Of a stretch of DNA of 64,000 bases, positions 9,555-49,865 are shown one piece after another (position 1 is the first letter of the stretch; every line of letters starts with the position of its first letter). Below the pieces are notes generated by a model. That model saw nothing but the letters and a program-made list of their open reading frames with translations. It was not told the DNA's origin and did not search any database. The translations under genes were made by a program, and so were the position numbers. Origin of the DNA: Knoellia sinensis KCTC 19936 (GTDB lineage: Bacteria > Actinomycetota > Actinomycetes > Actinomycetales > Dermatophilaceae); assembly GCF_000768705.1 (NCBI RefSeq), contig NZ_AVPJ01000001.1, positions 62,001-126,000 on the forward strand, given 5' to 3'.

Positions 9555-9630
9555 CGACTTTGTGCCCGAATGGGACACGCTTCGTCGGCCGTAGGCCTCC
9601 ATCAGCGTGTCCCATTCGGGCACAAAGTCG
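9555..9630. repeat. Long palindrome, CGACTTTGTGCCC family, copy A
   Basis: Perfect 27-bp arms at 9555-9581 and 9604-9630. The 22-nt loop itself holds a small GGCC-GTA-GGCC hairpin. It begins 15 nt after the response-regulator stop on the minus strand, so it probably ends that transcript. It shares the arm core GACTTTGTGCCC with the copies at 42453 and 49791, and in slightly changed form with 46514. Confidence 0.85.
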
Positions 9631-9644
9631 AGCAGCGGGGTGTG

Positions 9645-10250
9645 TCAGAGCCAGCCGCGGTCGCGTGCGTGAACTGCGGCTTCGGCCCGCGTCGAAGTAG
9701 CTGTCTTGGCCATCGCCGACGACAGGTAGTTGCGCACCGTCCCCTCGGACAAGTGAACAGCCTTGGCGACAACGGCGATCGGCGCACCGCCCAGGGCGGC
9801 ACGCAGGACGTCCTGCTCACGGACGGTGAGCGGGTTGGCGCCCTCGATGAGGGACTCGGCCGCGAGCGCGCCGTCGATGACGCGCTCCCCCGCGTGCACT
9901 CGTCGCACCGCGTCAGCGAGCTCGGATGCAGGCGTGTCCTTGACGACGAACCCCGCAGCGCCGGCTTCCAGGGCCCTCCGGACGAACCCCGGTCGCCCGA
10001 AGGTCGTGACGATCAGTGACCGCACTCCCATGCCCGAGGCGATCAACGACCGACACACCTCGATGCCGTCCATGCCGGGCATCTCGACGTCGAGCAGGGC
10101 GACGTCGACGTCATGTGCCCGGACCAGGTCGAGCACCTCGTCACCACGACCTGCCTCGGCAACGACGTCGAGGTCCGGTTCGAGCCCGAGCAAGGTGACG
10201 ACCGCTCCGCGCACGAGCGCCTGATCGTCGGCGACGAGCACCCGGATCAC
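9645..10250 (-). CDS. NarL-family response regulator
   Basis: 201-residue response regulator. The receiver domain has DD at 8-9, phospho-acceptor Asp near 54 (VALLDVEMPGM) and the conserved Lys in FVVKDTP. The C-terminal LuxR HTH (LTVREQDVLRAALGG...LSEGTVRNYLSSAMAK) resembles DesR/LiaR-type regulators. The GTG start overlaps the upstream kinase stop as GTGA. The frame is open further upstream, but that part is the kinase shadow. The kinase, permease and ATPase genes overlap in series, so the ABC exporter is the likely target or signal partner. Confidence 0.93.
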   Translation of the reverse strand: MIRVLVADDQALVRGAVVTLLGLEPDLDVVAEAGRGDEVLDLVRAHDVDVALLDVEMPGMDGIEVCRSLIASGMGVRSLIVTTFGRPGFVRRALEAGAAGFVVKDTPASELADAVRRVHAGERVIDGALAAESLIEGANPLTVREQDVLRAALGGAPIAVVAKAVHLSEGTVRNYLSSAMAKTATSTRAEAAVHARDRGWL

Positions 10251-11341
10251 AGGGACACCTCGAGCCGGACTCCGGGCGACACATCGATCACTCGCAGCTC
10301 TCCCCCGGCTGCGTCGACCCGCTCGCGAACCCCCCTGAGCCCGTTGCCCTCTCGCAGGCCGGACGGGCCTCGTCCGTCGTCCTCGACGGTGAGTGAGGAC
10401 GGCCCCAGGACCACACGGCATACGGTGGCATTGCTGTGCCGCACGACGTTGGTGACGGCCTCCCGCAGCACCCAGGCGAGGACCACCCGATGGCGCGGGT
10501 CGACGATCGTGAGGTCACTCGGCATCTCCGACCGGATGCCGGCCGAGGCGAGCACCCGCTCGGCAGAGGCGATTTCGTCGCTCAGACTCGCCGAACGGAT
10601 TCCGCCCACTGCAGCCCGCACCTCAGCGAGCGCCTGACGGCTCAACGCGGCGACCTCAGCAATCTCACGCCGGGCCCGTTCGGGGTCGGTCGCCACCAGG
10701 CGCTCCGCCACGTCGGCTTTGAGGCTCATGGCGGTGAGGGTGTGCCCGACGACGTCGTGGACGTCCCGCGCGACCCTGTCACGCTCGGCAGCCATGGCCA
10801 ACTCGCCCGTCAGCTGCTCATAGAGGACCGTGCGCCGGTCGAGCCCGCGCACCACTCCGGTGACCACGGCGATGAGCACGACGATCCCCATGAGGAACCA
10901 CTCGTCCGCCCCGCCTGCCCCCGTGGTCAGCCAGAACGTGAGGACGAGGACCGCCGCTGTCATCAGCACCCCGGCCCAGAGCGGCAGGACGAACATCGAC
11001 AGGGCGACGAGATAGGGGCCAGCGCCGACGGAGAACGCACCGACGAGGGCATGGATGGCGCCACAGATGAGGAGCAGCGCGACGAGATGGGCGACTCCGT
11101 CACGACGCACCGACCGCTCCGTCGAGGGACGGCCCATCCGGACAAAGGCTCGGATATAGACCAGCCCGAAGAGGACGAAGAGTGCGACGGCGCCGACGGT
11201 GCGCGGTCGACTCTCGTCGCTGGCCACGACACCCGCTATCGGGAAGGCGAGGAAGACGAGCCACACCGCGCCCATGACCCACCCCCAGCGCCGCCACGGA
11301 TCGGTGGGCTGGGAGTGGGTCGACACTGCCTCGGCGTTCAC
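10247..11341 (-). CDS. Sensor histidine kinase linked to ABC exporter
   Basis: 364-residue kinase with about five to six membrane segments in the first 165 residues and very short loops, an intramembrane-sensing layout. The HisKA_3 phospho-acceptor is His near 195 (ARDVHDVVGHTLTAMSL), followed by a compact HATPase domain with VEDDGRGPSG. I chose the GTG at 11341 because it overlaps the permease stop as GTGA; the frame extends 20 codons further. Kinase, regulator and ABC-2 exporter in one overlapping operon resemble DesKR-type or BceRS-like modules that respond to membrane or antibiotic stress (inference). Confidence 0.92.
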   Translation of the reverse strand: MNAEAVSTHSQPTDPWRRWGWVMGAVWLVFLAFPIAGVVASDESRPRTVGAVALFVLFGLVYIRAFVRMGRPSTERSVRRDGVAHLVALLLICGAIHALVGAFSVGAGPYLVALSMFVLPLWAGVLMTAAVLVLTFWLTTGAGGADEWFLMGIVVLIAVVTGVVRGLDRRTVLYEQLTGELAMAAERDRVARDVHDVVGHTLTAMSLKADVAERLVATDPERARREIAEVAALSRQALAEVRAAVGGIRSASLSDEIASAERVLASAGIRSEMPSDLTIVDPRHRVVLAWVLREAVTNVVRHSNATVCRVVLGPSSLTVEDDGRGPSGLREGNGLRGVRERVDAAGGELRVIDVSPGVRLEVSL

Positions 11342-12185
11342 TGTCGGCCGCGACTGCGCTGCACCAGCCACGTCGCGAGCACTGCGAAGATCACCGTCCA
11401 CACCACAACGTTAGTCACCGGCATCCAGAGGGGCTGGTGCGTGAGGTTGCCGGCGGTGTCGACCACGTCGCCCCCGGTCAGGGGGTAGCGCGCCAGGGAG
11501 ACATAGCCGTACAGCGGGGTGAACCGGGCGAGGTCGAGGAGGAAACCACTCAGCGGGAAGAAGATGTTGCCGAGGAAGCCGAGGATGACGAGCGAACCCG
11601 ATGCGGCCGAGACCGAGGACTCGGACCGGAACGCCATCCCGAAGATCAGCCCGTAGAGCGCGAACATGACCGCGCCCGCAACCAGGATCGCTGCGCTGCC
11701 CGCCCAGGCCATCAGGCTTCCCTTGGCTCCGGTGAAGGCCCCGAGGACATAGACGACGAGGATCGGCAGGATCGCGATGAGCAGGGCGACGGTCGCCTTG
11801 ATCGCGACGAAGGTGCCGTCGCCCAGAGGGGTGAGTCCCAACTGCCGGCCCCACCCCTGCATGCGCTCCACTGCGGCCGTGCCGCCGACGCCGACCGTCG
11901 CGGTGACCGCACCGTAGGCGGCCATCGAGATCATGACGTAGAGGGCGACGTTGCCGTTGCCGGCCGATTGCTGGGACCAACCGGCGCTCGCGCCGAAGAG
12001 CAGGTACATGAAGGCCGGGAGCGCCACGACGAAGAACATCGTCACGAGATCGCGCGTCACGCGCTTCAGTTCAAGACGGAGGTATGCCGTCCGCTTGCCT
12101 CGCTCGGTCGGCTCTCCGAGCCCGGTCACCCGAGGCTTCCGTGCCGGGGTCTCAAGGGTGCTGCTGGGCTTCGTGGTCGCGGTGG

Positions 12186-12189
<4 letters not shown>
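11338..12189 (-). CDS. ABC-2 type transporter permease
   Basis: 283-residue membrane subunit with six predicted helices between about 45 and 275 and a cytoplasmic N-terminal tail rich in Thr/Pro/Arg. It matches ABC-2 (drug or polysaccharide exporter) permeases such as YadH/DrrB relatives. The ATG overlaps the ATPase gene stop as ATGA, and the 3' end overlaps the kinase start. A copy of the GTATGCCGTCC motif lies inside the gene at 12082-12092, read as part of KRTAYLR. Substrate unknown. Confidence 0.9.
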
Positions 12190-13121
<932 letters not shown>

Positions 13122-13200
13122 GCATCAAGCGTGCGGCGGCGAGGGCGGCTCCCGGCAGTGCCGGAAGCCACCAACTCACCATGACATCTGTCAGGTGCAG

Positions 13201-13872
13201 TCAGCCCGCGACGAGGGACCGCCTCAGCTCGTCGGCCCCTGCACCTTCAAGCTCATCGATACGGGCCGTGCGGCCGGTCATGAGAAGCAGGAGGGCTCCC
13301 GCCGACGCGCGCACGTCGAGGCCCTCGCCAACGGACCAGTCGGTGTCCGTTGCAGTGAGTCGGTAGGGGTCCAGCGAGTGGTTGCGGAAGACGACGCCCA
13401 GCCAGGTGTGGCGCGTCGCCCAGACCCGCTCGGCGGCCTCCGCGGCTGCCTCCGCGGGCATGTCGAGAGTCAGGCCCAGTGGGAGGGCGATGTCCTGACC
13501 GTGCACGAGGATGTCGATGAGGGACCCACGCTCGGTGACGAAGGCATTGTGCCGACGCAAGCCCTCCATGCCCCGGATGCGTCCGATGATCTCCGCCTCG
13601 GACAGCTCTGCGGCAAGGAGCACCGCCGAGTCGTGAATGATGCCGTTCAGGGAACCGGCTCGGAGCACCTTGGGGTGACTCGCCATGAAAGAGATGGCAT
13701 CCCTGATCCGCTGTTGCTGCATCGTTGGGGTCAAGTGGGCTGCGACGTGGCGGACCGACCACCCGTCACAGAGGGACGGGTGATCCCACTGCTCGGCCGT
13801 GAGCGTCTCGAGCAGGTTGGCGGTGCGCCGCCGCTGGTCATCGATGGCGGCCCAGATCTCGTCGCTGTTCAT
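13201..13872 (-). CDS. Maleylpyruvate isomerase-family mycothiol-dependent enzyme
   Basis: 223-residue DinB-fold protein. The N-terminal MDMPI helix bundle includes LCDGWSVRHVAAHLT, with the metal-binding His of the family, and a second His in ILVHGQDIALPLG. Members are mycothiol S-transferases or isomerases; the specific reaction is not predictable. The ATG overlaps the stop of the upstream DsbA-like gene as ATGA, so two mycothiol-associated enzymes form one unit. Confidence 0.87.
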   Translation of the reverse strand: MNSDEIWAAIDDQRRRTANLLETLTAEQWDHPSLCDGWSVRHVAAHLTPTMQQQRIRDAISFMASHPKVLRAGSLNGIIHDSAVLLAAELSEAEIIGRIRGMEGLRRHNAFVTERGSLIDILVHGQDIALPLGLTLDMPAEAAAEAAERVWATRHTWLGVVFRNHSLDPYRLTATDTDWSVGEGLDVRASAGALLLLMTGRTARIDELEGAGADELRRSLVAG

Positions 13873-14666
13873 GTGCGGACCCCTTCGTCGTAGCGCTCCT
13901 GCGGCGCGTACCAGACATCAGGTGGAGCGATTCGGCTGCGCTTGAACTCGAAGAAGTCCTGGCTCTCGGACACGAGCCGGATTCCGTCGAACAGTCGGAC
14001 GGCTGCATCGCCCATCGGGACCGCATTGAGGATCGGGCCGAAGAAGGCAACGCCGTCGATGTGGACCACCGGTGTGCCGACGTCGAATCCGACCGGCAGG
14101 ATCGCCGCGTCCGTGGAGGCGCGAAGCGCGTCGTCGTACGCATCCGACACCGCGACCTCCGCGAGCGCCGCCGGCAGTCCGGTCGCGACCAGCGCGTCGA
14201 GAGCGGCAGCGCGATACTCCCTGGGCGTCGGAAAGCGCCAGTGGTCGAAGATCCGGTGGCCGAACTCGCGGTGCCAGGTGGCGAATGCCTCGCGCCCGTG
14301 CTGTTGGACGACGGCCATCGCCACGCGAGAGGGCCCCACCATCCCGGCATACCGCTTCTCGAGGACACCGCCGGCGTTGAGCAGGTGCAGGCTCATGACG
14401 TGGTGACGGACGTCGATCGCGCGCAGTCTCCCTACCTCCCGCAACCAGCACGAAGCGATCCAGGTGTAGGGGCAGATCGGGTCGACGTAGAGGTCGACGA
14501 CAGTCGGTGCGCCTGGAATGGTCGCGTTGCTCGCCCGCGCGGCCTCGATCCGCTGGAGTGTGCCCCTGGGCGGAGCGTGACGCTGGACCTTCTTCAGATA
14601 GGCCGTCACCGCGATCTCCCACTTCGCCAGATCCGGGGCGCCGTTGCTTGATACGAGTCTTTCCAT
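13869..14666 (-). CDS. Mycothiol-dependent nitroreductase Rv2466c-family protein
   Basis: About 265-residue DsbA-fold protein closely resembling Rv2466c: VDLYVDPICPYTW, HVMSLHLLN, SDAYDDALR, VGTPVVHIDGVAFFGP and FFEFKRSR. Rv2466c has a CPWC active site; here the motif is CPYT, so only one active-site Cys is visible. An N-terminal extension of roughly 50 residues precedes the thioredoxin fold. The start is uncertain: ATG 14702, ATG 14666 and GTG 14609 (which has GGGAG at good spacing) are all possible. It overlaps the maleylpyruvate isomerase-like gene. Confidence 0.8.
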   Translation of the reverse strand: MERLVSSNGAPDLAKWEIAVTAYLKKVQRHAPPRGTLQRIEAARASNATIPGAPTVVDLYVDPICPYTWIASCWLREVGRLRAIDVRHHVMSLHLLNAGGVLEKRYAGMVGPSRVAMAVVQQHGREAFATWHREFGHRIFDHWRFPTPREYRAAALDALVATGLPAALAEVAVSDAYDDALRASTDAAILPVGFDVGTPVVHIDGVAFFGPILNAVPMGDAAVRLFDGIRLVSESQDFFEFKRSRIAPPDVWYAPQERYDEGVRT

Positions 14667-14727
14667 GTCCCCAGCGAATCGGTTGAGCGGCCGCGCGCGC
14701 ATCGTGCGAATTGCTCATTCCGCCTGC

Positions 14728-16626: not shown

Positions 16627-16705
16627 CCTCGGAGTCTGATCGCCCGGCGACCCCAAGGCAATCGGGTCGCCCTGGCTGCGGGCTCCCCGAACCTTCGCGG
16701 ACCGT

Positions 16706-26366: not shown

Positions 26367-26701
26367 CCTGGCCTCCTTCACGTGCAAGGGACGTCTTCCC
26401 CAACGCCGTCGCACGTTCGTTCTTGGAGGGCACAGATCTGTATGCCGGCCAGCTCACTGTGAGGGCACCTTGCGTGCCGCTGTTTGTCGCCTCACGAGCG
26501 AACTCGTGACACGTGAGGCTCATCATGCCGCATGAGCACCACGAACATCACGCGCGACACGAACCAACTTCCACCCCGCCGGGGAAGCTCACCAAGCCTC
26601 GGCTGCACAGTCGAGGTAGTAGGAAACGCCGAAGCAGCACCACTGACTTCGGCGTGTCTTACTACCTCGACTCAGCGCCGGCGATGCGGAAACTCGAACC
26701 G
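26367..26701. other. 335-bp gene-free interval with one long hairpin
   Basis: I find no supported gene here. It holds the DUF3145 promoter side, a CTGTATGCCGG motif copy near 26438 and the long inverted repeat at 26610-26671. A short frame over 26513-26767 runs through the tRNA and is not a gene. Confidence 0.6.
26610..26671. terminator. Long imperfect hairpin 3' of the CAU tRNA
   Basis: 25-nt arms at 26610-26634 and 26647-26671 pair with two mismatches around a 12-nt loop. It starts 31 nt beyond the tRNA 3' end on the minus strand, so it may end the tRNA transcript. The sequence is unlike the CGACTTTGTGCCC family. Confidence 0.55.
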
Positions 26702-28541: not shown

Positions 28542-28558
28542 TCCACACCGAGACGCTT

Positions 28559-28600
28559 GAAGGTATGCCGTCCGCTCACCGGGGCGGGCGGCATACCTTC
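28559..28600. terminator. gluB-gluC intergenic hairpin built from inverted motif copies
   Basis: 17-bp arms at 28559-28575 and 28584-28600 pair with one G-U position. Each arm contains a GTATGCCGYCCGC copy, one in each orientation. It is likely a partial terminator or 3' stabiliser protecting the gluAB message. Confidence 0.7.
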
Positions 28601-28638
28601 GTGCGAATCACGTTCCCCCGCAACGGAAAGGTCTCTGC

Positions 28639-38472: not shown

Positions 38473-40140
38473 AGCCGCAGCACTCCCGGGCACCGGGTCA
38501 TCCTGAAGGCTGGGAAGCGTCGCCACCCTGTGGATCACACCGGTCACGGTGTCCCAGACGAGCAGGGCCGTGCCGTGCCAGCGGACCAGCACATGGTCGC
38601 GATAGACCCAACCCAGGACGTCGCAGCACCCCACCGCGAGACCCTCGCTGTTGGGCGCGAGGAGCAGGCGGGCCGTGGAGGGGCGCTCGGGATCGACGGT
38701 GAACACCCCTTGGAACAAGCGCTCCGGGTAGCGGCGATTCGCCTTCAGCGCCGTCGACTGCCCGAGGAAGCCACCCGTCGCGACGCGCGAGGAAGGACTG
38801 GTGAACGTCGTGCCCCACACCTTGGCGAGGACGTCCAGCCCTGGGAGCGTCCCGGTGTTCGCACCATCAGGTCCGAAGGACAGGATCCGCATGGACTCGC
38901 TTCCCCGCACCTGCACCTCGTGAGGCCCTGGATGGGCGCCTTGCGCCAGCCGGTTCACCGCACCCGTCTCGGGTGAGACCCGCCACACTTGGGTCCGTGA
39001 CCACACGATGATCGACGATCCGACCCATCCGCCGCCCTCGAGATAACGGTCCTTGACCGGCATGGTCCGGACGACCCCGCTGAACGCATCAAGCACGTGA
39101 ACCTTTCCCGGTTGGATGAACATGACCCGCCGCCGGTCATCCGCGATGGCCGTGACCTCCAGGGGGTCCGAGGTGCGGCCGGCCTCGTCGAGGTTCGGGA
39201 CCAGCTGAAGGGTGTCCACGGCGACGAACGGGTCGCTGAGTGTGGGGCGCACGAGCACTGGATGCAGCGTTCCGGCCGTGTGCCGCAGAAGCACGGCACG
39301 CACAGGGGCACTGCTGTTCCCCAGCTCGCCGATGGTCGTGATTCGTGTGTCCGGGCCGAAGCCCAACACCTCGGGAAGTGCGAGCTGGCTTCGAGCCAGG
39401 TCGTCGATCCGCGGCAACGCCGCCACCTGCTCCGGATGGGGGCCCACCTGGGCCAACGCCCCGTCCAGGGTGAACTCGCGAGAGTCCCATCCCGGCAGCA
39501 AGGACTGCATGCTCGAAGGCGCGGGCAGTGGGAGGGACACCCGATCCGTGCTCTCCGTGTCGATCAGGGTCAGTGCCGCAATCGCGAGCGCCGCACTCGC
39601 CGCCACAGCCACTGTGGTGCGTCGCCCACGCGTACGACGGTGCGCTGCCCGGCGAATGGCTCGGTCGACGAAGTCCTTCTCGTCCACCTCAGCCGCGGTA
39701 TCCTGCAGGGCGTCCGGACTGACCGGCTTCTCATGGTGCCGCACTGTCGGGATGGACACCCCGAGGATCTCGGCAGTCTCGGCCTCGGTGCGTTCTTCGT
39801 AGCGTCGCAGGATGGCGACGGCACGGTCCTTGTGGCCGAGCGCCTGCAGTTCGGCCAGGACGCGACTTGCGTCGCCGCTCGCCTGACGGGGTTCACTGGC
39901 ACGTGGACCGGTGAGGCGTGCTCCGGGCCGATAAAGGGACCGCCGAACCTCGATGTCGGGCTTCTCGTCCCGGATCCGGTCCCAGTGCAGCGCGAGGTCG
40001 GCGAACGCTCTCTCGACGGCGTCGTCCCCGCGCCTCTCGTCACCGCACAGCAGGTAGGCCGCGCGCCTCAGATCATGCTGGCGCGCACGGACGAAGTCGG
40101 CGAACTCGTCGACGTCGGCTGCGTCAGACCTCCAGGCCAC
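38452..40140 (-). CDS. Sigma-factor-like, transmembrane, beta-propeller-like fusion
   Basis: 562 residues in one frame. Residues about 12-65 resemble ECF/SigE-family sigma region 2 (FADFVRARQHDLRRAAYLL, GDDAVERAFADLALHWDRI). About 90-140 resemble region 4 (DRAVAILRRYEERTEAETAEILGV). A basic stretch and one membrane helix (about 175-193) follow, then a ~360-residue extracytoplasmic region of repeating beta elements with Trp/Gly blades. The usual linker between sigma regions is short. The chosen GTG has GGAAGAG upstream; the frame runs 29 codons further. It may be a membrane-tethered sigma or a degenerate one used as a sensor; both are inference. Confidence 0.75.
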   Translation of the reverse strand: MAWRSDAADVDEFADFVRARQHDLRRAAYLLCGDERRGDDAVERAFADLALHWDRIRDEKPDIEVRRSLYRPGARLTGPRASEPRQASGDASRVLAELQALGHKDRAVAILRRYEERTEAETAEILGVSIPTVRHHEKPVSPDALQDTAAEVDEKDFVDRAIRRAAHRRTRGRRTTVAVAASAALAIAALTLIDTESTDRVSLPLPAPSSMQSLLPGWDSREFTLDGALAQVGPHPEQVAALPRIDDLARSQLALPEVLGFGPDTRITTIGELGNSSAPVRAVLLRHTAGTLHPVLVRPTLSDPFVAVDTLQLVPNLDEAGRTSDPLEVTAIADDRRRVMFIQPGKVHVLDAFSGVVRTMPVKDRYLEGGGWVGSSIIVWSRTQVWRVSPETGAVNRLAQGAHPGPHEVQVRGSESMRILSFGPDGANTGTLPGLDVLAKVWGTTFTSPSSRVATGGFLGQSTALKANRRYPERLFQGVFTVDPERPSTARLLLAPNSEGLAVGCCDVLGWVYRDHVLVRWHGTALLVWDTVTGVIHRVATLPSLQDDPVPGSAAASVAIAP

Positions 40141-40212
40141 AGGTCCACTCTTCCAACGTGAAGGTGAGATCGGAAGAGAAGCGAGCAGAACGGCATACGA
40201 AGGAGACACAGC

Positions 40213-40244
40213 GAAACCCCCCGACAACTGTCGAGGGGTTTCGT
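40213..40244 (-). terminator. cspA terminator hairpin
   Basis: Arms around CGAAACCCC (40213-40227) and its near complement (40230-40244), with one G-U type mismatch, lie 34 nt after the cspA stop on the minus strand. Confidence 0.65.
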
Positions 40245-40277
40245 GATGAGAGTCGAACTCTCAGAAGGGAGTGAGGA

Positions 40278-40481
40278 TCAGAGACCCTTGACCTTCTCGG
40301 CCTGCGGGCCCTTGGGGCCCTGCGTGACGTCGAACTCCACCTTCTGGCCTTCGGTGAGCTCGCGGTAGCCGCTGCTCTCGATGGCCGAGTAGTGAACGAA
40401 GACGTCGGCGCCGCCGCCGTCCTGCTCGATGAAGCCGAAGCCCTTTTCGCTGTTGAACCACTTCACGGTGCCGGTTGCCAC
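40278..40481 (-). CDS. cspA: Cold shock protein
   Basis: 67-residue OB-fold RNA chaperone. RNP1 KGFGFI and RNP2 VFVHYSAI are intact (the family more often has VFVHF). Typical actinomycete CspA length and start ([20 protein letters not shown]). GTG start. About 140 bp separate it from the upstream FMN reductase stop; a structured 5' leader is possible but I see no recognisable cold-shock box. Confidence 0.96.
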
Positions 40482-40620
40482 TGGTGTTGCCTATCTGTGT
40501 GTTGCGAGGGCTCCCGTATGGAGTCCTCAGGTGCCGCCTTCAGAGGCAACGAGGACAACGGTAGCAGCGGAGCACGGTCGACACCCCATCGTGAGCCGGA
40601 GATGTCGATCGGTGTGTCGC

Positions 40621-41280
40621 TCAGGAGGAAGCGCGGCGGAGCAGCTCGGCGAAGTCGGTGACCTCGTCGAAGCGGTCGGTGAAGCCGGCCTCGCGCTCCT
40701 CGCCCTCTGCCGGCAGGAAGCCGGAGCGCCCCGCGGCCGCGCCCGCCACCGATCCGAGCACCGCGGAGACGAGTTCCGCGGCGGCGCGGTCGATGCGCCG
40801 GTCGAGACCCGGCGTGCCGAAGTCGTCCGTGGCCGCCAGGACACCCGTCGGCACGACCGAGGCGTGCAGGTAGGAGAAGAGCGGACGCATCGCGTGGTCG
40901 ATCATGAGCGAGTGCCGGGCCGATCCCGCCGTCGCCGCGACGAGGACGGGCTTGCCCTCGAGCGCGTTCACGTCGAGATTGTCGAAGAACGACTTGAACA
41001 GTCCGCTGTAGGACCCGGTGAACACCGGCGTCACGGCGATGAGGGCATCGGCCGAGATGACCTTCTCGACGACCGCGGTCAGTTCCCCGCTGGGGAAGCG
41101 AGTGAGCATCTGGTCGGCGATGAGCTTGGCCAGGGGCCGCAGCTCGATGACCTCGACCGTCGCCGCCTCGCCATGCGCGGTGACGTGCCGGTCCACGGCC
41201 TCGGTGAGGCGGTCGGTGAGCAGGCGCGTCGAGCTGGGCTCGGACAGGCCGGCGGTGACGGCGACGATGCGACGGGTCAT
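40621..41280 (-). CDS. CE1759-family FMN reductase
   Basis: 219-residue flavodoxin-fold NADPH-dependent FMN reductase: IVAVTAGLSEPSSTRLL, LKSFFDNLDVNALEGKPVLVAATAGS. It is the standard partner of the adjacent LLM monooxygenase, supplying reduced FMN. One base separates its ATG from the monooxygenase stop, so the two are an operon likely controlled by the operator at 42399. Confidence 0.9.
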   Translation of the reverse strand: MTRRIVAVTAGLSEPSSTRLLTDRLTEAVDRHVTAHGEAATVEVIELRPLAKLIADQMLTRFPSGELTAVVEKVISADALIAVTPVFTGSYSGLFKSFFDNLDVNALEGKPVLVAATAGSARHSLMIDHAMRPLFSYLHASVVPTGVLAATDDFGTPGLDRRIDRAAAELVSAVLGSVAGAAAGRSGFLPAEGEEREAGFTDRFDEVTDFAELLRRASS

Positions 41281-41281
41281 G

Positions 41282-42379
41282 TCAGACCTCCACAGGGGTT
41301 CCGTCGAGCGCGACGAGGCGCTCGGCGTGGCGGGGTGCCGTGGCCGGCACGTGGGCGGGACGACGGGCGTCCGCGATCTTGCGCAGCTCGGGGACGACCT
41401 CGCCGCCGAGGATCTCGAGTTGCTCGAGGACGGTCTTGAGCGGCAGGCCGGCGTGGTCCATGAGGAACAACTGGCGCTGGTAGTCGCCGACGTGGTCGGC
41501 CATGGTCGCGTAGCGATCGATGATCTGCTGCGGCGAACCGACAGTCAGCGGCGTCTCGCGGGTGAACTCCTCCAGCGACGGGCCGTGGCCGTAGACCGGG
41601 GCGTTGTCGAAGTACGGCCGGAACTCGCGCACCGCGTCCTGGCTGTTCTTGCGCATGAACACCTGGCCGCCAAGTCCGACGATGGCCTGGTCGTGCTTGC
41701 CGTGACCGTGGTGCTGGTAGCGGCGGCGGTAGAGGTTGACCATCTGCTTGGTGTGCGACAGCGGCCAGAAGATGTTGTTGTGGAAGAAGCCGTCACCGTA
41801 GAAGGCTGCCTGTTCCGCGATCTCGGGGCTGCGGATCGAACCGTGCCAGACGAACGGTGGGATGCCGTCGAGCGGGCGCGGCGTCGAGGTGAAGCCCTGG
41901 AGTGGCGTGCGGAACTTGCCCTCCCAGGTCACGTTTTCCTCGGTCCAGAGGCGGCGGAGCAGGGCGTAGTTCTCGACGGCGAGGTTGAGGCCCTCGCGGA
42001 TGTCCTTGCCGAACCAGGGGTAGACGGGGCCCGTGTTGCCGCGGCCCATCATGAGGTCCATGCGGCCGTCGGACAGGTGCTGCAGGTAGGCATAGTCCTG
42101 CGCGATCCGCACCGGGTCGTTCGTCGTGATCAGCGTGGTCGACGTCGAGAGGACGATCCGCTCGGTCTGGGCGGCGATGTTCGCGAGGAGGACCGGCGGG
42201 TTGGCCGGCGCGGCGAACGGCGGGTTGTGGTGCTCACCGGTCGCGAAGACGTCGAGGCCCACCTCCTCCGCCTTCTTGGCGATGGCGACGGTGGCCTTGA
42301 TGCGCTCGTTCTCGCTGGGCGTGATGCCCGTGGTCGGGTCCGTGGTGACGTCCCCAACGGTGAAGATGCCGAACTCCAT
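41282..42379 (-). CDS. LLM-class flavin-dependent oxidoreductase (CE1758 type)
   Basis: 365-residue luciferase-like TIM-barrel enzyme. Starts MEFGIFTVGDVTTDPTTG; other marks are GLDVFATGEHHNPP, DLMMGRGNTGPVYPWFGKD and FVWHGSIRSPEIAEQAAFYG. It uses FMNH2 from the adjacent reductase; substrate unknown. ATG 42379 has AAGGAG upstream. The longer frame runs into the palindrome at 42453 and is not coding. A RosR-like palindrome lies 20 bp upstream. Confidence 0.92.
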   Translation of the reverse strand: MEFGIFTVGDVTTDPTTGITPSENERIKATVAIAKKAEEVGLDVFATGEHHNPPFAAPANPPVLLANIAAQTERIVLSTSTTLITTNDPVRIAQDYAYLQHLSDGRMDLMMGRGNTGPVYPWFGKDIREGLNLAVENYALLRRLWTEENVTWEGKFRTPLQGFTSTPRPLDGIPPFVWHGSIRSPEIAEQAAFYGDGFFHNNIFWPLSHTKQMVNLYRRRYQHHGHGKHDQAIVGLGGQVFMRKNSQDAVREFRPYFDNAPVYGHGPSLEEFTRETPLTVGSPQQIIDRYATMADHVGDYQRQLFLMDHAGLPLKTVLEQLEILGGEVVPELRKIADARRPAHVPATAPRHAERLVALDGTPVEV

Positions 42380-42398
42380 CTCAGTCGCTCCTTGTGAG

Positions 42399-42418
42399 GT
42401 AGTTGAATGTTCATCTAC
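42399..42418. promoter_or_regulatory. Candidate MarR/RosR-type operator
   Basis: Imperfect palindrome GTAGTTGAATGTTCATCTAC, 19 bp before the monooxygenase ATG. Half-sites GTTGA and TCATC have the same spacing as the corynebacterial RosR consensus (GTTGA, four bases, TCAAC), and RosR controls FMN reductase genes there. The match is by memory; no binding is shown. Confidence 0.5.
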
Positions 42419-42452
42419 TTGAACAGGGTAGCGCCGCCGTCCATTCCCACAG

Positions 42453-42519
42453 GCGACTTTGTGCCCGATTGGGACATGACGAGCGCAGCGAGACGTGTCC
42501 CAATCGGGCACAAAGTCGC
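42453..42519. repeat. Long palindrome, CGACTTTGTGCCC family, copy B
   Basis: Perfect 24-bp arms at 42453-42476 and 42496-42519 with a 19-nt loop, 12 nt after the stop of the coiled-coil gene. Arm reads CGACTTTGTGCCCGATTGGG; relative to copy A the base after GA is changed and compensated in the other arm. Confidence 0.85.
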
Positions 42520-42531
42520 TGCGAGTCCCGG

Positions 42532-43380
42532 CTACTGCAGGGCAGCGCGGGCTGCATCAAGGCGCTTCTGTGCGGCGATGACGGCCTTGCGTGCCACCCG
42601 GGCGGCATCCTCAGCCGCCTCGAGGTCGGCCTGCGCCCCCGCCATCTGCGCTTCGGCTTCGTCCACCTCGGCCTCGGCTTTGCGCCGCTCCCTGGCCGCA
42701 GCTTTCACAGCCCTGGCTGCGACCACCGCCGCCTTGAGCTCCTCCTCGGTCAGCTCGTCATCGTCGAGGTCCTCGCCGGCCTGGGGTTCCGGCTCGACTT
42801 CGGGCTTCCCACCCTTGAGGACCGACATGATCGAGCCGGAGCTCGTGACTCCCACGGCTCCGGAGAGGTCCACCTCGCCGAACCCGCTGTAGCTGAGCGC
42901 GCGTGTCAACTGTCCAGACGCGAGCGCCTCCGCAGCACTCTCGTCGGCGAGTGCCGCGATCGCGGTCGCCCGCACTTCGTCGCGACCACTCGCGCTCAAC
43001 GCGCCACCCGCCGTCGTGGCCACCTCCGCGACGCGTTCGACGTATGCCGTGAGGGCCGCGTCCCGCTCCCCTCTCACCGAGGTGAGGACACTGGCGTCCA
43101 GGCGAGCCTGGGCGGCCCGCATCCGCGCCCCGAGGCCGACGAGGTCGGCGACCACTCCCCCGTCGTCGCGCGACGTGAGGTTCATGGCCCACGCGGTCAC
43201 GGTGGGCTTGCGCAGCGCCAGGATCTCCTTGGCCGCGGCGGCGCCACCGGCCGACTTCGCTGAGGCGGCCAACGCCTTCCGGGAGGTCACGAACTCGGCC
43301 AGCGGGACGGCATACAGGCTGGCAGCCGCGTCGGCGACGGTGCGGTCGCCAGCCACGTCGCCGTCTGGATCGCTGGCCAT
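42532..43380 (-). CDS. Coiled-coil protein, actinomycete-conserved, unknown function
   Basis: 282 residues, Ala-rich and helical. The N-terminal block ASLYAVPLAEFVTSRKAL...LRKPTVTAWAMNL is a pattern I have seen in many actinomycete hypothetical proteins. An acidic linker (EPEPQAGEDLDDDELTEEEL) leads to a ~75-residue Glu/Ala/Arg coiled coil at the C-terminus. No catalytic motif. TAGGCT ends 6 nt before the ATG. Confidence 0.78.
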   Translation of the reverse strand: MASDPDGDVAGDRTVADAAASLYAVPLAEFVTSRKALAASAKSAGGAAAAKEILALRKPTVTAWAMNLTSRDDGGVVADLVGLGARMRAAQARLDASVLTSVRGERDAALTAYVERVAEVATTAGGALSASGRDEVRATAIAALADESAAEALASGQLTRALSYSGFGEVDLSGAVGVTSSGSIMSVLKGGKPEVEPEPQAGEDLDDDELTEEELKAAVVAARAVKAAARERRKAEAEVDEAEAQMAGAQADLEAAEDAARVARKAVIAAQKRLDAARAALQ

Positions 43381-43386
43381 GCTCAG

Positions 43387-43392
43387 AGCCTA
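43387..43392 (-). promoter_or_regulatory. Candidate -10 box TAGGCT, leaderless
   Basis: Minus-strand TAGGCT ends 6 nt before the ATG at 43380; the same hexamer occurs before 46229. Confidence 0.45.
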
Positions 43393-43409
43393 GTGGTCGC
43401 GCGCGTCGG

Positions 43410-44669
43410 TCAATCGTGCGTGCGCAGGTGCCAGCCCCAGATGAGGCACCCGAGACTGATGAACACCAGACTGGTCACCGCGAGGGTCGTCACGGAGCCG
43501 GTGACGAGGGGGGTGAGGAGGGTCGCGACGACGGCATTGGTCGCCAGGGGCATGACCCCCGCGACGGACGCCGCCGCACCCCGCATGTGCGGGAAGCGGT
43601 CCAGCAGGGCCACTTGGATCGTGGGGAAGGCGACCCCTGTCCCGATGGCGATGAGGCTCGGGCCGACGACGGCCCACGGGAGATTCGGCCCGAACACCAC
43701 GGCAAGCGCGACATTCGCCACGGCTGCCGCGAGCGACACGAAGAACGCGACGGTGATGAGCCGACGGGCGCTCACGCGGCCTGCGGCGCGACCGCTGATC
43801 CACGAACCGAGGATCACACCGCCGATCATCGGGACGAAGAACTGCCAGAAGTCCTGCTCACCCTTGCCGAGGAGCTCGACGACGAAGATGGCCGCCCCGC
43901 CGATGTAGATGAACTGGCCGGCGAAGACGAGGGTGATCGCCCAGCCCATCCGTTCGAAGGTGGCATCCCGCGCGACGTGGGCCAGGTCGCGGAGCATCGG
44001 GCCGAGCCGGAGAGGTCGCCGGCGCTCGGGTGGGTGGGTCTCGGGGATCACGGTGAGCACGACGACGGCGAGAACGACGGCGAACAGGCCGATGAACCAG
44101 AAGATCGTCGGCCACCGCCCAAACTCCAGGAGGAGTCCACCGACGACCGGGGCGATCGCCGGCGCCAACCCGAAGATCATCATGACGCGACTCATGGCAC
44201 GCTGCGCCTCGACGCCGTCGAAGAGGTCGCGGATGATCGTGCGCCCGATGATCGTCGAGCCACCGGCGGAGAGCCCCTGGAGGACGCGGAAGCCGAGCAG
44301 CACCGGCAGGCTCGGTGACAGGGCGCACCCGATGCTCGCCAGCGCATAGATGCCGAGTGCCCCGATGACGACCGGCCGCCTGCCCACGGCATCCGAGAGC
44401 GGTCCGTGGAAGGGCGTCATCACTGCGAAGGCGAGCATGTAGGCACTGACGACGAGTTGCATGTCGTCGATGCCCACGCCGAACTCGCCGCGCATCTGCG
44501 CGAAGGCGGGGAACGGCGTGTCGATCGAGAACGGCCCGAGCATCGCCATGCCAGCGAGGACCAGCGTGACGAGCCACCCGGCACGCCGGCGCGAGACTCC
44601 GTCCGGATGGCCCGAACCCGCGGCAGACCCCGCGCCGGGATCTGAGGCTGGGACGGAGCCGCGTGGCAT
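43410..44669 (-). CDS. Bcr/CflA-type multidrug efflux MFS transporter
   Basis: 419-residue 12-helix MFS antiporter. Motif A appears as GPLSDAVGRRPVVIG between helices 2 and 3; RVLQGLSAGGSTIIGRTIIRDLFDG marks the Bcr/CflA group. A ~28-residue Ser/Gly/Pro N-terminal tail precedes helix 1. It begins 8 nt after the glyS stop on the same strand, so it is probably cotranscribed with glyS although functionally unrelated. Confidence 0.9.
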   Translation of the reverse strand: MPRGSVPASDPGAGSAAGSGHPDGVSRRRAGWLVTLVLAGMAMLGPFSIDTPFPAFAQMRGEFGVGIDDMQLVVSAYMLAFAVMTPFHGPLSDAVGRRPVVIGALGIYALASIGCALSPSLPVLLGFRVLQGLSAGGSTIIGRTIIRDLFDGVEAQRAMSRVMMIFGLAPAIAPVVGGLLLEFGRWPTIFWFIGLFAVVLAVVVLTVIPETHPPERRRPLRLGPMLRDLAHVARDATFERMGWAITLVFAGQFIYIGGAAIFVVELLGKGEQDFWQFFVPMIGGVILGSWISGRAAGRVSARRLITVAFFVSLAAAVANVALAVVFGPNLPWAVVGPSLIAIGTGVAFPTIQVALLDRFPHMRGAAASVAGVMPLATNAVVATLLTPLVTGSVTTLAVTSLVFISLGCLIWGWHLRTHD

Positions 44670-44677
44670 TCGGTGCG

Positions 44678-46084
<1,407 letters not shown>

Positions 46085-46091
46085 GCGCGCA

Positions 46092-46097
46092 AGGTTA
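46092..46097 (-). promoter_or_regulatory. Candidate -10 box TAACCT of glyS, leaderless
   Basis: Minus-strand TAACCT ends 7 nt before the glyS ATG; no ribosome site lies between. Confidence 0.45.
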
Positions 46098-46214
46098 CTG
46101 TCCGCGGAGCGTCGCCCCGAATCGGTTCCGCGCCACTGCCGCTGCCTTGCGTCCGGGGACGCGGTCGCCCGAGCGACCAAGCCTGCGGACGCCGTTGTAT
46201 GCCGCCCGCTCACG

Positions 46215-46220
46215 TAGGCT
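46215..46220 (+). promoter_or_regulatory. Candidate -10 box TAGGCT, leaderless
   Basis: TAGGCT ends 8 nt before the GTG at 46229. A GTATGCCGCCCGCTCACG motif copy directly precedes it. Confidence 0.45.
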
Positions 46221-46228
46221 CTCCGCTC

Positions 46229-46510
46229 GTGTCACCCCTTCGCGAATCCTTCGAGCGCGCGAGCGCGCCTGTTCTCCAGAAGTTGGCCGGGCTCCCCCGG
46301 GCCATCCCGTTCCTTCTGGTCCTCGGACTCTTGCTCGCCGGGGTCCTCATCCCGGGGTGGGGCTGGATCCTCGTCGCGCTCGTGACGCTGTTCCTGTTGT
46401 GGCTGCTCTTCCTCGGCTGGCCCCGGCTCACACCGCCCGAGCGGGTGATGCGTGTCGCCGTCGTCGCAATCGCCGCGGCCATCACCGTCACCCAGGCCTT
46501 CCCCCGCTGA
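46229..46510 (+). CDS. Small membrane protein (DUF6703-like)
   Basis: 93 residues. The amphipathic start [23 protein letters not shown] leads into two or three hydrophobic segments ([21 protein letters not shown] and [14 protein letters not shown]), then [13 protein letters not shown]. This order matches what I remember of DUF6703, an actinomycete membrane family of unknown role. GTG start. A long frame extending upstream is the antisense of glyS. Confidence 0.75.
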
Positions 46511-46513
46511 GCC

Positions 46514-46579
46514 TCCGACCTTGTGCCCCGTTGGGACGGCGAGCGCCAGCGAGTTGTCCCAACGGGGCACAAGGTCGGA
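46514..46579. repeat. Long palindrome, CGACTTTGTGCCC family, copy C
   Basis: Perfect 24-bp arms at 46514-46537 and 46556-46579 with an 18-nt loop, 4 nt after the preceding stop. The arm begins CCGACCTTGTGCCCCGTTGG: T to C and other changes relative to copies A, B and D are all matched in the opposite arm. Confidence 0.85.
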
Positions 46580-46586
46580 TCAGGAT

Positions 46587-46623
46587 TGACAATCATTCTC
46601 ATCTGGAATGAGAATGATTGTCA
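46587..46623. promoter_or_regulatory. Double Zur box over the znuA promoter
   Basis: Two 15-bp palindromes, TGACAATCATTCTCA (46587-46601) and TGAGAATGATTGTCA (46609-46623), are themselves inverted copies, forming a 37-bp palindrome. Both fit the actinomycete Zur pattern TGANAATNATTNTCA. They cover TTGACA (-35, 46586-46591) and GAGAAT (-10, 46610-46615). Zn-loaded Zur would block transcription of the znu-zur operon. Confidence 0.85.
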
Positions 46624-47558
46624 TGAAGCGCTCCCTCGTCACTCTCTGGGCTGTGGCCGGCCTCGCACTCGGAGCGTGCGGCGCCTCGGCCGACTCGGCG
46701 GGCGACGGGAAGGGCGTTGAGGTCGCCGCCGCCTTCTACCCCTTGGCGTATGCCGTCGAGCGGGTTGGCGGCGACCGCGTCGACGTGACCAACCTGTCCA
46801 AACCGGGCACGGAGCCTCACGACGTCGAGCTGACCCCCAAGGCCGTCGCCACCCTGAGCGGATCGGACCTCGTGGTCTTTGAGAAGGGCTTCCAGCCCGC
46901 CGTCGACGAGGCCATCGGGCGGGCCGACGACGCACGGATCCTGGACGTGGCGAGCACGGTGGACCTGACCGTCGTGGCTGCCGATGACGGGCATGACCAT
47001 GGCGGCGAGCACACGGAGGAGCACGCTGACGAGGCGGCCGTCGACCCGCACTTCTGGCTGGACCCGACTCGGTATGCCAAGGCCGTGGAGGCGATCGCAG
47101 CGGAACTGGCGGCGGTCGACCCGGCCGGTGCGACGGCATACGCAAGGAACGCCGAGACGTTCGTCGCCGAGTTGACAGCTCTCGACGCGGAGTTCGCGGC
47201 GGGCCTCAAGCACTGCGCCAATCGCGATCTCGTCACGGGGCACGTGGCCTTTGCCTATCTGGCAGACCGCTACGACCTTCATCAGTCCGGGATCGCCGGC
47301 CTGTCCCCCGACGCCGAACCGAGCGCGGGCGCGATGAAGGAGATCGTCGAGCACATCCGCGAGCACGAGGTCACGACGATCTACGCCGGGGCGCTCGTCA
47401 GCAAGGACCTCACCGAGACGATCGCGAAGGAGACCGGCACAACCGTGGCCGTCCTCGACCCCCTCGAGGGACTCACGGAGTCGTCCGCTGGCAACGACTA
47501 CCTCGAGGTGATGAGGTCCAACCTCGCCACTCTGAAGAAGGGACAGGTGTGCCGATGA
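46623..47558 (+). CDS. znuA: Zinc ABC transporter substrate-binding lipoprotein
   Basis: 311 residues from ATG 46623. The signal peptide has lipobox LGAC with Cys19. The cluster A-I fold shows FYPLAYAVERVGGD, GTEPHDVELTPK, the His-rich acidic loop DDGHDHGGEHTEEHAD, then DPHFWLDPTRY and TGHVAFAYLADRY. In-frame ATGs at 46608 and 46614 lie inside the operator; 46623 is preferred because the -10 element ends 7 nt before it and the signal peptide then has normal length. High-affinity zinc capture; first gene of znuACB-zur. Confidence 0.92.
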   Translation: MKRSLVTLWAVAGLALGACGASADSAGDGKGVEVAAAFYPLAYAVERVGGDRVDVTNLSKPGTEPHDVELTPKAVATLSGSDLVVFEKGFQPAVDEAIGRADDARILDVASTVDLTVVAADDGHDHGGEHTEEHADEAAVDPHFWLDPTRYAKAVEAIAAELAAVDPAGATAYARNAETFVAELTALDAEFAAGLKHCANRDLVTGHVAFAYLADRYDLHQSGIAGLSPDAEPSAGAMKEIVEHIREHEVTTIYAGALVSKDLTETIAKETGTTVAVLDPLEGLTESSAGNDYLEVMRSNLATLKKGQVCR

Positions 47559-48367
47559 CGAGCACCCCGCTCATCGAGCTCCGGTCGGCGTCCTTCGGCT
47601 ACGCCGACCGCAAGGTTGTCGACGGCGTCACCCTGTCCCAGGGACCGGGCGAAGTCATCGCCCTCCTCGGCCCCAACGGGTCCGGCAAGTCGACGCTGGT
47701 CAAGGGCCTTCTCGGGCTGTCCGATCACCTCGGCGGTGACGTGAAGTTGTTTGGGACGGCGTTGGCGAAGTTCCGCGACAAACCGCGCATCGGCTATGTG
47801 CCGCAACGACATTCGCTCTCGACCTCCGTGCGCGTCACGGTCCGCGAGATCGTCGAGACCGGACGGCTTCCCCTGCGGCCATGGTGGCGTCCCAGCGGCG
47901 CCGCCGATGCGGCCGTCGTCGACAAGGCGCTCGACGCCGTCGGACTCCGGGATCGCGAACGTGAGGACGTCGCAGCGCTCTCCGGGGGCCAGCAGCGACG
48001 AGTTCTGATCGCCCGCGCCCTCGCTGCACAGCCGGACGTTCTCGTCATGGACGAGCCCACGGCGGGCGTCGACGTCGCCAACCAGCGCATCCTCGCGGAC
48101 GTCCTGGCCCGACTCGCCGAGCGCGGAACGTCGATGCTCATCGTCACGCACGAACTCGCGGCCCTGAGCGACGTCGTCACCCGCATCGTGTGCATGAACG
48201 CCGGGCACGTCGACTTCGATGGTTCGCCCACGGCATACGCCGCTGGTCACCGTCGCCACGAGTTGGGTGACGGGCACCATCATTCTCCGTCCGCGGACGA
48301 GCGCGAGCCCGGACTCGCTGCAATCGTCACCGACGCCCTGCCCTCTCGGGAGGTGCGCCGTGGGTGA
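47555..48367 (+). CDS. znuC: Zinc ABC transporter ATP-binding protein
   Basis: 270-residue ATPase with Walker A GPNGSGKST, Q-loop YVPQRH, signature LSGGQQRR, Walker B VLVMDEPTAGVD and H-loop VTHELAAL. The C-terminal tail carries HRRHELGDGHHHS, a possible metal-binding stretch. ATG overlaps the znuA stop as ATGA; the znuB start overlaps its 3' end by 8 bp. Energises zinc import. Confidence 0.92.
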   Translation: MTSTPLIELRSASFGYADRKVVDGVTLSQGPGEVIALLGPNGSGKSTLVKGLLGLSDHLGGDVKLFGTALAKFRDKPRIGYVPQRHSLSTSVRVTVREIVETGRLPLRPWWRPSGAADAAVVDKALDAVGLRDREREDVAALSGGQQRRVLIARALAAQPDVLVMDEPTAGVDVANQRILADVLARLAERGTSMLIVTHELAALSDVVTRIVCMNAGHVDFDGSPTAYAAGHRRHELGDGHHHSPSADEREPGLAAIVTDALPSREVRRG

Positions 48368-49376
48368 CCTGCTCTCCCTCGACTTCATGCGCCAAGCGCT
48401 CATCGCGGCGGTGCTCGTCGGGCTGGCCGCTCCCCTCGTGGGCGCGTTCCTCGTCCAACGCCGCATGTCACTCATCGGCGACGGCATCGGCCACGTTGCT
48501 TTGGCGGGTGTGGCGGTGGGGATCCTCACGGGTTCGATGCCGGTCCTCACGGCATTGGTCGCCGCCGTCGCCGCTGCCGTCGGAGTCGAATTGATCCGGG
48601 CAGCCGGGCGGACGAGCGGTGACATCGCACTCGCCGTGATGTTCTATGGCGGCATCGCACTCGGCGTCGTCCTCATGTCGAAGTCGACAGCTTCCTCGGG
48701 CAACCTCACCGGCTACCTGTTCGGTGCGATCCTCACGACCACGAGCAGCGACATCGTCGTCTTCGCCGGTCTCGCCGTCGTCGTGGTCGGCGTGACCTGG
48801 GTGCTGCGTCACCGGTTCTTCGCGGTGGCCAACGACGAGGAGTATGCGCGAGCGGTCGGGCTGCCGGTGATGGCCTACAACATCGCCCTGTCCGTGCTCA
48901 CCGCCGTCACGGTCGTGGTCTCGATGCGCGTCGTCGGATTGCTCCTCATCACCGCACTCATGATCGTCCCCAACGCCACCGCCCAACTCGTGTCGCGCAG
49001 CTTCCGGAGCAGCCTGGTCTGGGCCTCCCTCATCGGCGTGCTGTCCGCGGTCGGTGGCGTCGTCGGCTCGTTCTATGCCGAGACCCCGTCGGGCGGGACC
49101 ATCGTGCTCCTCGCCATCGCGACCTTCCTGGTCGTGAGTGTCGTCAGCGGACTCGTGACGCGGGCCCGGCGTGCGGCCCACGAGCGCGCCGAACGCCACG
49201 ACCACGAGCATGGACCTCAGTGCGGCCACCAAGCGATTCCCCATGATGGCCACATCGACTACCTGCACGACGGCCATCGTCACGCTGCCCACAAGGATCA
49301 CTACGACGAGCACGACGAGCACCCACACGAGCGCCCTCACGATGACCACGCGCAGCCCGAGGAGGTCTCGCGATGA
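48360..49376 (+). CDS. znuB: Zinc ABC transporter permease with His-rich tail
   Basis: 338 residues. About the first 265 form the ABC-3 permease core, with seven to eight helices (VGAFLVQRRMSLIGDGIGHVALAGV, ALMIVPNATAQLVSR). The last ~70 residues are a cytoplasmic tail with 17 His, one Cys and many Asp/Glu (CGHQAIPHDGHIDYLHDGH is the core). That core resembles small actinomycete zinc-associated peptides. Start GTG 48360; the upstream frame is znuC shadow. The stop overlaps the zur ATG. Confidence 0.9.
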   Translation: MGDLLSLDFMRQALIAAVLVGLAAPLVGAFLVQRRMSLIGDGIGHVALAGVAVGILTGSMPVLTALVAAVAAAVGVELIRAAGRTSGDIALAVMFYGGIALGVVLMSKSTASSGNLTGYLFGAILTTTSSDIVVFAGLAVVVVGVTWVLRHRFFAVANDEEYARAVGLPVMAYNIALSVLTAVTVVVSMRVVGLLLITALMIVPNATAQLVSRSFRSSLVWASLIGVLSAVGGVVGSFYAETPSGGTIVLLAIATFLVVSVVSGLVTRARRAAHERAERHDHEHGPQCGHQAIPHDGHIDYLHDGHRHAAHKDHYDEHDEHPHERPHDDHAQPEEVSR

Positions 49377-49780
49377 GTTCTTCCACGACGGATTCCGGCC
49401 CCACCAGGCGTCCGACCCGCCAACGGGCCGCGCTTGCCGAGGTCATGGCTGCAACGTCCGAGTTCCTGTCAGCCCAGGACCTGCACGCCAAACTGCAGTC
49501 ACGTGGCGACTCGGTGGGACTCGCGACCGTCTATCGGAACCTGCAAGCCATGGCTTCCGATGGTGACGTCGACGTGCTGCGCACCGATGACGGCGAAGCG
49601 GTCTATCGCTCCTGCGGCACGGCCGAGCACCACCACCACCTCGTGTGTCGGGAGTGCGGGCGCACCGTCGAGGTGGACGGTCCGGCGGTCGAGAAGTGGG
49701 CCGCCGAAGTCGCACGGGCCAACGGCTTCACCGACGTCACGCACACCATCGAGATCTTCGGCACCTGCACCTCCCACTGA
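49373..49780 (+). CDS. zur: Zinc uptake regulator, Fur family
   Basis: 135-residue repressor. The winged helix has FLSAQDLHAKL and VGLATVYRNLQAMASDG; metal sites are in YRSCGTAEHHHHLVCRECG, with a C-terminal Cys in GTCTSH as second structural site. ATG overlaps the znuB stop as ATGA, so zur is the last gene of the operon it should repress through the double box at 46587, giving negative autoregulation. Confidence 0.92.
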   Translation: MSSSTTDSGPTRRPTRQRAALAEVMAATSEFLSAQDLHAKLQSRGDSVGLATVYRNLQAMASDGDVDVLRTDDGEAVYRSCGTAEHHHHLVCRECGRTVEVDGPAVEKWAAEVARANGFTDVTHTIEIFGTCTSH

Positions 49781-49790
49781 CCCCACACGT

Positions 49791-49865
49791 CGACTTTGTG
49801 CCCCAATGGGACACGTGACGGCGGCCTTCGGCCGATGGAACGTGTCCCATTGGGGCACAAAGTCG
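49791..49865. repeat. Long palindrome, CGACTTTGTGCCC family, copy D
   Basis: Perfect 26-bp arms at 49791-49816 and 49840-49865. The loop contains a nested CGGCC-TTCG-GGCCG-like stem with a UUCG tetraloop. It lies 10 nt after the zur stop and 26 nt from the converging uppS stop, so it can terminate both. Confidence 0.87.

Follow-up and report, generated by a model that had tools for sequence, protein, structure and literature searches.

Dispersed palindromes of Knoellia sinensis and an AbiEi-type, nuclease-like gene flanked by their half-sites

Miniature inverted-repeat transposable elements (MITEs) are short elements whose ends are common to a gene-bearing parent transposon. Here, we analyse a family of long palindromes found in a 64,000-nucleotide stretch of the Knoellia sinensis KCTC 19936 genome (hereafter the window) and relate it to a gene outside the window which encodes an AbiEi-like protein with a nuclease-like part. 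Three described systems invite comparison. In REPIN/RAYT systems, dispersed repetitive extragenic palindromic (REP) sequences occur with a REP-associated tyrosine transposase (RAYT); the palindromes are extragenic inverted doublets with compensatory changes, half-sites also stand singly or in tandem clusters, a gene has its cognate repeat on its flanks, and a genome holds several repeat groups beside different genes (PMC3116915). A second source ties GTAG-type palindromes to RAYTs and reports CGTC-type REPs without a dedicated enzyme; the latter, from five phyla without Actinobacteria, have no RAYT, lie mainly downstream of genes and carry stems of 8-9 bp (PMC3733652). Lastly, AbiEi of the AbiE type IV toxin–antitoxin systems binds inverted repeats (PMC3985639).

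The Knoellia palindromes share the listed traits of REPIN/RAYT: the genome holds 73 extragenic doublets and 123 exact half-sites, and the gene flanked by the cognate repeat is of AbiEi-nuclease type instead of a RAYT. They differ in this linked gene, AbiEi-type and restriction-nuclease-like, and in a perfect stem of 24-27 bp. Like the CGTC REPs, they are REP-like, lack a RAYT and stand mostly downstream of genes; unlike them, they show neither the CGTC tag nor the 8-9 bp stem, and a candidate enzyme gene is linked. The partner protein has the N-terminal AbiEi-like part in common with AbiE, whereas its C-terminus is DUF559/restriction-endonuclease-like, a MoxR-type ATPase is encoded by the next gene, and the repeats lie on both gene sides and genome-wide. 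We consider it probable that the palindromes are REP/REPIN-like non-autonomous elements in which an AbiEi-nuclease gene takes the place of the RAYT. The association of gene and palindromes is well supported; the enzyme would mobilise them. Searches of the open-licence literature gave no account of dispersed palindromes on the flanks of AbiEi/DUF559 genes. The new point is the partner gene, a common actinobacterial family linked to cognate dispersed palindromes.

Genomes carry G-numbers and loci L-numbers. G000 is the window's own genome (3.99 Mb in 61 contigs; the window is G000:C1:62001-126000), and P0001 is its partner protein. For one window gene, the closest named matches come from Knoellia species and Janibacter sp. 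HTCC2649. The principal features are as follows.

Palindrome A, 9555..9630: long-loop class, arms 27 bp, 100% complementary; 15 nt from the stop of the minus-strand open reading frame (ORF) 9645-10421, a response regulator (Pfam).
Palindrome B, 42453..42519: CGAGCGCAGCGAG loop class, arms 24 bp, 100% complementary; 13 nt from the stop of the minus-strand ORF 42532-43380, which has no Pfam match.
Palindrome C, 46514..46579: CGAGCGCCAGCGAG loop class with the GACCTTGTG word, arms 24 bp, 100% complementary; 4 nt past the stop at 46510, with a DUF6703 protein and ZnuA as neighbours (Pfam).
Palindrome D, 49791..49865: long-loop class with GGCCTTCGGCC, about 26 perfect bp (by reading) in a 41-nt, 85% repeat; 11 nt past the stop at 49780 of a Fur-family gene (Pfam).
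P0001 gene, G000:C5:77158-78210 (= L121:3155-4207): ORF of 351 amino acids, outside the window.

The sequence-only reading of this DNA had placed the four palindromes correctly, with perfect arms of 24-27 bp and a stop codon at a distance of 4-15 nt; the ORF list puts the genes adjoining A and B on the right side, on the minus strand. It had also proposed a search for further copies, and these are numerous. The half-site GACYTTGTGCCCNNNNGGGAC has 60 + 63 = 123 exact occurrences in G000 and full palindromes number 73, both with reversed-pattern controls of 0. Each palindrome consists of two inverted half-sites of about 21-27 nt around a short loop. Lone half-sites occur too, as do direct tandems at a spacing of 33 bp and one cluster in +-- order. 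The half-site has the form CGACTTTGTGCCC..GGGACA, with ends CGAC/GTCG within the 24-27 bp stem, and no conserved GTAG tag was found in it. Reading shows a mini-hairpin (GTG-CCC-NNNN-GGG-A-CAC) within the half-sites of G000, G006 and G007 and none in the G004 array; it is not used as evidence.

The arms covary, as the same reading had claimed. Forty-six elements of the larger G000 population were sampled from the window and 49 further loci (50 sources), and their 21-bp arms are perfect in 39. Of the 21 arm columns, 12 were dictated by the search pattern; among the cells of the nine free columns, 406 of 414 pair. The variable 4-mer, of which 11 kinds occur, is equal in both arms of 43 elements (shuffles: mean 7.8, maximum 17). 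The description of the loops as not aligning has to be corrected: they are not simply unrelated, because a few length classes (short with CGAGCGCCAGCGAG or CGAGCGCAGCGAG, long with GGCCTTCGGCC) and motifs recur. These three loop motifs are shared by palindromes with different arm words in G000, G002, G004, G005, G006 and G008. The pattern looks like an exchange of loops and arms.

A terminator function had been proposed with the mobile one, and the position of the elements makes it plausible. A stop codon lies within 20 nt of 29/45 elements by crude gene calls, and 18/45 stand between convergent genes against a background of 54/221 which includes these loci; one edge case among the 46 elements was omitted, and the gene caller wrongly scored window copy C as divergent. 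The hairpins are very stable (mean minimum free energy -57 kcal/mol), and site D carries hairpins in four genomes, of three kinds. On such grounds, the palindromes could be bidirectional terminators kept by selection, their sequence shared through gene conversion and the AbiEi-nuclease genes being bystanders. The U-tract of an intrinsic terminator is absent: 0-3 T occur within the 8 nt past the stem on either side in the 46 elements, and a sigma-70/terminator scan of 40000-52000, which covers B, C and D and not A, gave no T-run terminator at those three. This explanation, which we regard as unlikely, also leaves without account the common 12-nt word and the inverted word copies around one gene family relative to controls. 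A terminator effect of resident copies of REP-like elements is possible all the same.

No RAYT-type transposase had been seen in the window, and this holds for the whole assembly: Y1_Tnp/RAYT (PF01797) has 0 matches in G000, while the same search is positive in 5 of 14 control genomes; a RAYT as partner was rejected on this ground. The sequence-only reading had suggested looking for an associated transposase or nuclease gene; the one linked here, the P0001 gene, is of a different family and lies outside the window, beyond the reach of that reading. Half-sites cluster on both of its sides in inverted orientation. Its flank reads CTTTGTGCCC-NNNN-GGGAC, and the count of 73 palindromes is reached by both search patterns.

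The match between gene word and genome palindromes is strong in G000 and in G007. In the latter, the gene flanks mostly read CTTCGTGCCC-NNNN-CGGAC; 85 palindromes are found with any base before GGAC as against 1 by the GGGAC pattern, and all five of a 400-kb sample are CGGAC (arm word CTTCG-TGCCC..CGGAC). The G007 and G004 homologues are likewise flanked by inverted arrays, each with its own words. In G006, where the gene lies at a contig start, three word copies stand 3′ of it and the contig edge holds one GCCC..GGGAC unit; the G008 copy (66% identity), in two overlapping pieces, has half-sites on both sides. Next to the G004 homologue, 13 half-sites are arrayed in tandem at a period of 35 bp, over about 2650-3100 of L184.

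The closest P0001 homologues, at 62-71% identity, occur only in the five element-rich genomes (G000, G004, G006, G007 and G008), and the best matches of the other four genomes of the genus reach 50-57%. A close homologue thus goes with abundant elements in 5/5 genomes and its absence with scarce ones in 4/4, own genome counted and orthology judged by identity and, in four genomes, a common neighbour, with no tree. The right neighbour in G000 is a MoxR-type AAA ATPase gene (Pfam), the left one has no Pfam match. The P0001 gene looks stationary, because the MoxR-type neighbour is kept in 4/5 genomes (by Pfam in G000, by reading in G007, G004 and G008; G006 differs on its readable side). Like MITEs, the palindromes are short elements with a gene-bearing copy that has common ends; this retained neighbour and the lack of any target-site duplication seen set them apart.

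The association extends to the whole gene family. The longest exact inverted match between the 300 bp upstream and the 300 bp downstream of each gene was scored with a threshold of 14 nt, the boundaries being homology-based for family genes and automatic for controls. At least 14 nt was reached by 19/29 Knoellia homologues and 10/28 homologues elsewhere in the class, as against 6/777 control genes (600-1500 bp, from 80 actinobacterial loci) and 2/197 Knoellia genes. The 777 controls include two genes of the family itself, L045, whose 25-nt match exceeds every other, and L086, which reaches 8 nt; leaving both out gives 5/775. The Knoellia set derives from 46 matches, 31 with loci: 28 loci and the merged L191/L197 (as L225) were scored, L183 at a contig edge was excluded, and the 15 without a locus were left unscored. 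The class set is the best match in each of 29 other genomes, of which 28 were counted (L278, at a contig edge, was dropped); two of its members, L270 and L271, come from the same genus and have a common word. The family is present in 37/40 sampled class genomes, own genome included, with up to 15 matches each.

Within the genus, the relaxed pattern is unevenly distributed over the nine genomes: G007 85, G000 73, G006 35, G008 25, G004 15 (13 by the stricter pattern), G003 2, G005 2, G001 1 and G002 1, with a reversed control of 0 in all nine. The sole match in G001 and in G002 is one repeated string, also among the G004 and G008 matches, which reads like a coding stretch. Outside the genus, 108 genomes yielded 5 matches to the stricter pattern, in 3 genomes; there this word is not above chance, because the reversed control matched more (9 in 8 genomes). 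Three palindromes of similar layout, GCCC(C/T)GGCGGGACATG.., were seen in G097, from another family of the order (C13:29997, C17:132109, C21:242414). Arm words vary by species, with CGACTTTGT-GCCC in G000 and CGACTTCTT, CGACTTATT or CGACTGATT-GCCC in G004, G006 and G008. Perfect arms make up 39/46 elements in G000, 12/14 in G006, 10/15 in G008 and 6/11 in G004. The less perfect arms of the last two, together with the broken G008 gene, would fit decaying populations; this is not proof, because G006 arms are 12/14 perfect although its gene word also differs.

A second group of family genes, 48-57% identical to P0001, stands in several genomes downstream of a gene that reads as a proteasome ATPase. 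Its flank words were compared by reading with palindromes of type TGATTGC..GCAATCA in the genomes other than G006 and G007, for which matches are not listed. The gene word occurs in at least one arm of 8/14 palindromes in G001 (TTGCGCATT), 8/18 in G005, 4/25 in G008 (two adjoining the gene), 2/12 in G004 (one adjoining the gene), 1/8 in G003 and one among those listed in G002 (42 in total). G000 gave 0 exact cases and 5/18 one base off the gene word. Another family palindrome lies in the window itself:

Second-family palindrome, 26609..26672: GTCGAGGTAGTAGGAAACGCC, arms 26 nt, 92% complementary.

Its word GTCGAGGTAGTA is present in 6/345 loci, among them L339, where palindromes with this word enclose another gene of the AbiEi-nuclease family (G000:C7, about 79513-80460). 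In the distant genome G141, the gene-flank word has 22 occurrences, 4 of which adjoin the gene; G127 has none.

Words at the gene itself could have another function. An AbiEi-type regulator might autoregulate through its flanking inverted repeats, the dispersed palindromes being regulon sites or decoys; classic AbiEi binds its own promoter at two inverted repeats (PMC3985639), and words are indeed present upstream of the family genes. They are also present downstream, however, and genome-wide they stand mostly behind stop codons. We attach a small probability to such operator sites, which leave the empty sites described below, the tandem arrays (13 units in G004) and the conserved nuclease-like motif unexplained.

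Orthologous loci of related genomes show the elements both present and absent. Both flanks of an own element were matched in 16 element-locus pairs, 15 of which were read (window B versus L035 was set aside, its right flank being matched only far from the edge). Four look empty: L153 vs L236, within a few bases, L156 vs L248, window B vs L032 and window C vs L031. Seven have a palindrome of the same family (L131 vs L212 and L233, L132 vs L213, L144 vs L242, L159 vs L239, window C vs L032, window D vs L035), two one of another word family (window C vs L035, window D vs L031), and two other sequence (window B vs L031, window D vs L032). Site C is also empty in the four outgroups L036, L038, L050 and L059; L032, L035 and, by reading, L041 hold different half-site words there. 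L131, L212 and L233 have a common position in three species, with differing words and loops. The mobile or recombining nature put forward by the sequence-only reading is thus supported by the 73 copies, the empty orthologous sites and the species-specific arm words, with no event observed.

The palindromes might instead belong to a nuclease-driven selfish or defence locus, as break-repair relics or protected self-sites which are not mobilised. The nuclease-like domain, the identical and species-specific arms, and the PADLOC grouping of the N-terminal part with AbiEi abortive-infection antitoxins agree with this. A whole palindrome facing an empty site (L153 vs L236) needs copying to a new place, and no toxin partner is seen at P0001, where the next gene is that of the MoxR-type AAA ATPase; on balance, such a locus seems improbable.

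The partner family proteins match AbiEi antitoxin models or no model whatever. PADLOC AbiEi matches P0001 at E=5e-10 over residues 12-178, and a Pfam search of P0001 gave no match. Of 14 homologues, 6 have Pfam AbiEi_4, 2 have DUF559 and 2 have MTES_1575 (both restriction-endonuclease-like); P0001 itself matches none of these models. NCBIfam had no match for 5 proteins, and a PDB sequence profile search returned none. In a 14-sequence alignment, E201, D234 and E245 are invariant and K251 is nearly so; we read these residues as a candidate PD-(D/E)XK site. A model of the Blastococcus homologue shows a C-terminal domain of helix, three strands, helix and strand (4-sequence alignment; mean predicted local distance difference test score 65, better in the C-terminal half).

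These features can be combined into a mechanism. The AbiEi part is a plausible recognition module because classic AbiEi binds inverted repeats, and the other part a plausible cutter because it is nuclease-like. The AbiEi part would bind the half-site, which the nuclease part would cut or nick, and repair or strand transfer would put a new copy of the palindrome into intergenic DNA; survival would be best for copies that land behind stop codons. Repeated cutting and repair could keep both arms identical, and drift of the recognised word would lead to arms rewritten genome-wide. Extended to the Actinomycetia, the idea is more tentative: it is possible that AbiEi-type genes with a nuclease-like domain make up a large, hitherto unrecognised class of REP-like systems, in which each gene is dedicated to mobilising or converting its own species-specific palindromes; the class would parallel RAYT/REPIN with another enzyme at its core. 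If true, this would give a role to these AbiEi-like proteins and a candidate enzyme to actinobacterial REP-like elements, and would provide a case in which the co-evolution of a DNA-binding nuclease with a genome-wide repeat can be tested.

Several findings weigh against an AbiEi-nuclease gene acting in the place of a RAYT. No 14-nt flank match is found in 10/29 Knoellia and 18/28 class-wide homologues, and only one of 8 further G000 member loci reaches 14 nt with the boundaries used. The G006 gene-flank word, CTTCGTGCCC..AGGAC, is unlike that genome's own CTTCTT/CTTATT-GCCC..GGGAC palindromes; the G004 array ends in GCGCC instead of GGGAC, and 3/11 elements carry its word TTCTT; the G008 gene is split and its word TGATT is in 4/15. 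For the second gene group, the gene word occurs in a minority of palindromes in most genomes. The G143 gene word is weak, with 2 matches within 1 mismatch and 5 within 2 in 400 kb, where seven other words gave 0 and 0-1. In G002, the most frequent listed word, TTGCGCACAGTTCGC, has 81 half-sites, and no family gene was found in 17 fetched loci, which represent part of the listed half-site places and include two near contig starts. The nine genomes of the genus are not phylogenetically independent. No target-site duplication is evident at the compared sites, and no transposition event was seen. Finally, Foldseek on the Blastococcus model returned nothing at E <= 0.001: mitoribosomal proteins came first (E 0.018, template modelling score 0.24 or less), and the first endonuclease-labelled match is 3hrl (TMt 0.58 at E 1.7), which is not significant.

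Further repeats were noticed in passing. A third G000 palindrome family, TGATTGCCC(C/G)GCGCTGCAC, lies at C1:476664, C2:3094, C2:96827 and C33:32166; it has 4 copies by exact word and about 8 with looser spelling, with no partner gene identified. The motif GTATGCCG is repeated across several Knoellia loci and is perhaps a further repeat family. Palindromes with GGTATGCCG / CGGCATACC occur at 28554-28605 of the window and at L324 (G007), and a perfect 18-bp palindrome with a 4-nt gap, GTCCGCAACTTTGGTCGC, at 5412-5451. Next to palindrome C, immediately before znuA, a perfect 16-bp inverted repeat (46587-46623, TGACAATCATTCTCAT) has close counterparts at orthologous loci; it resembles a Zur box.

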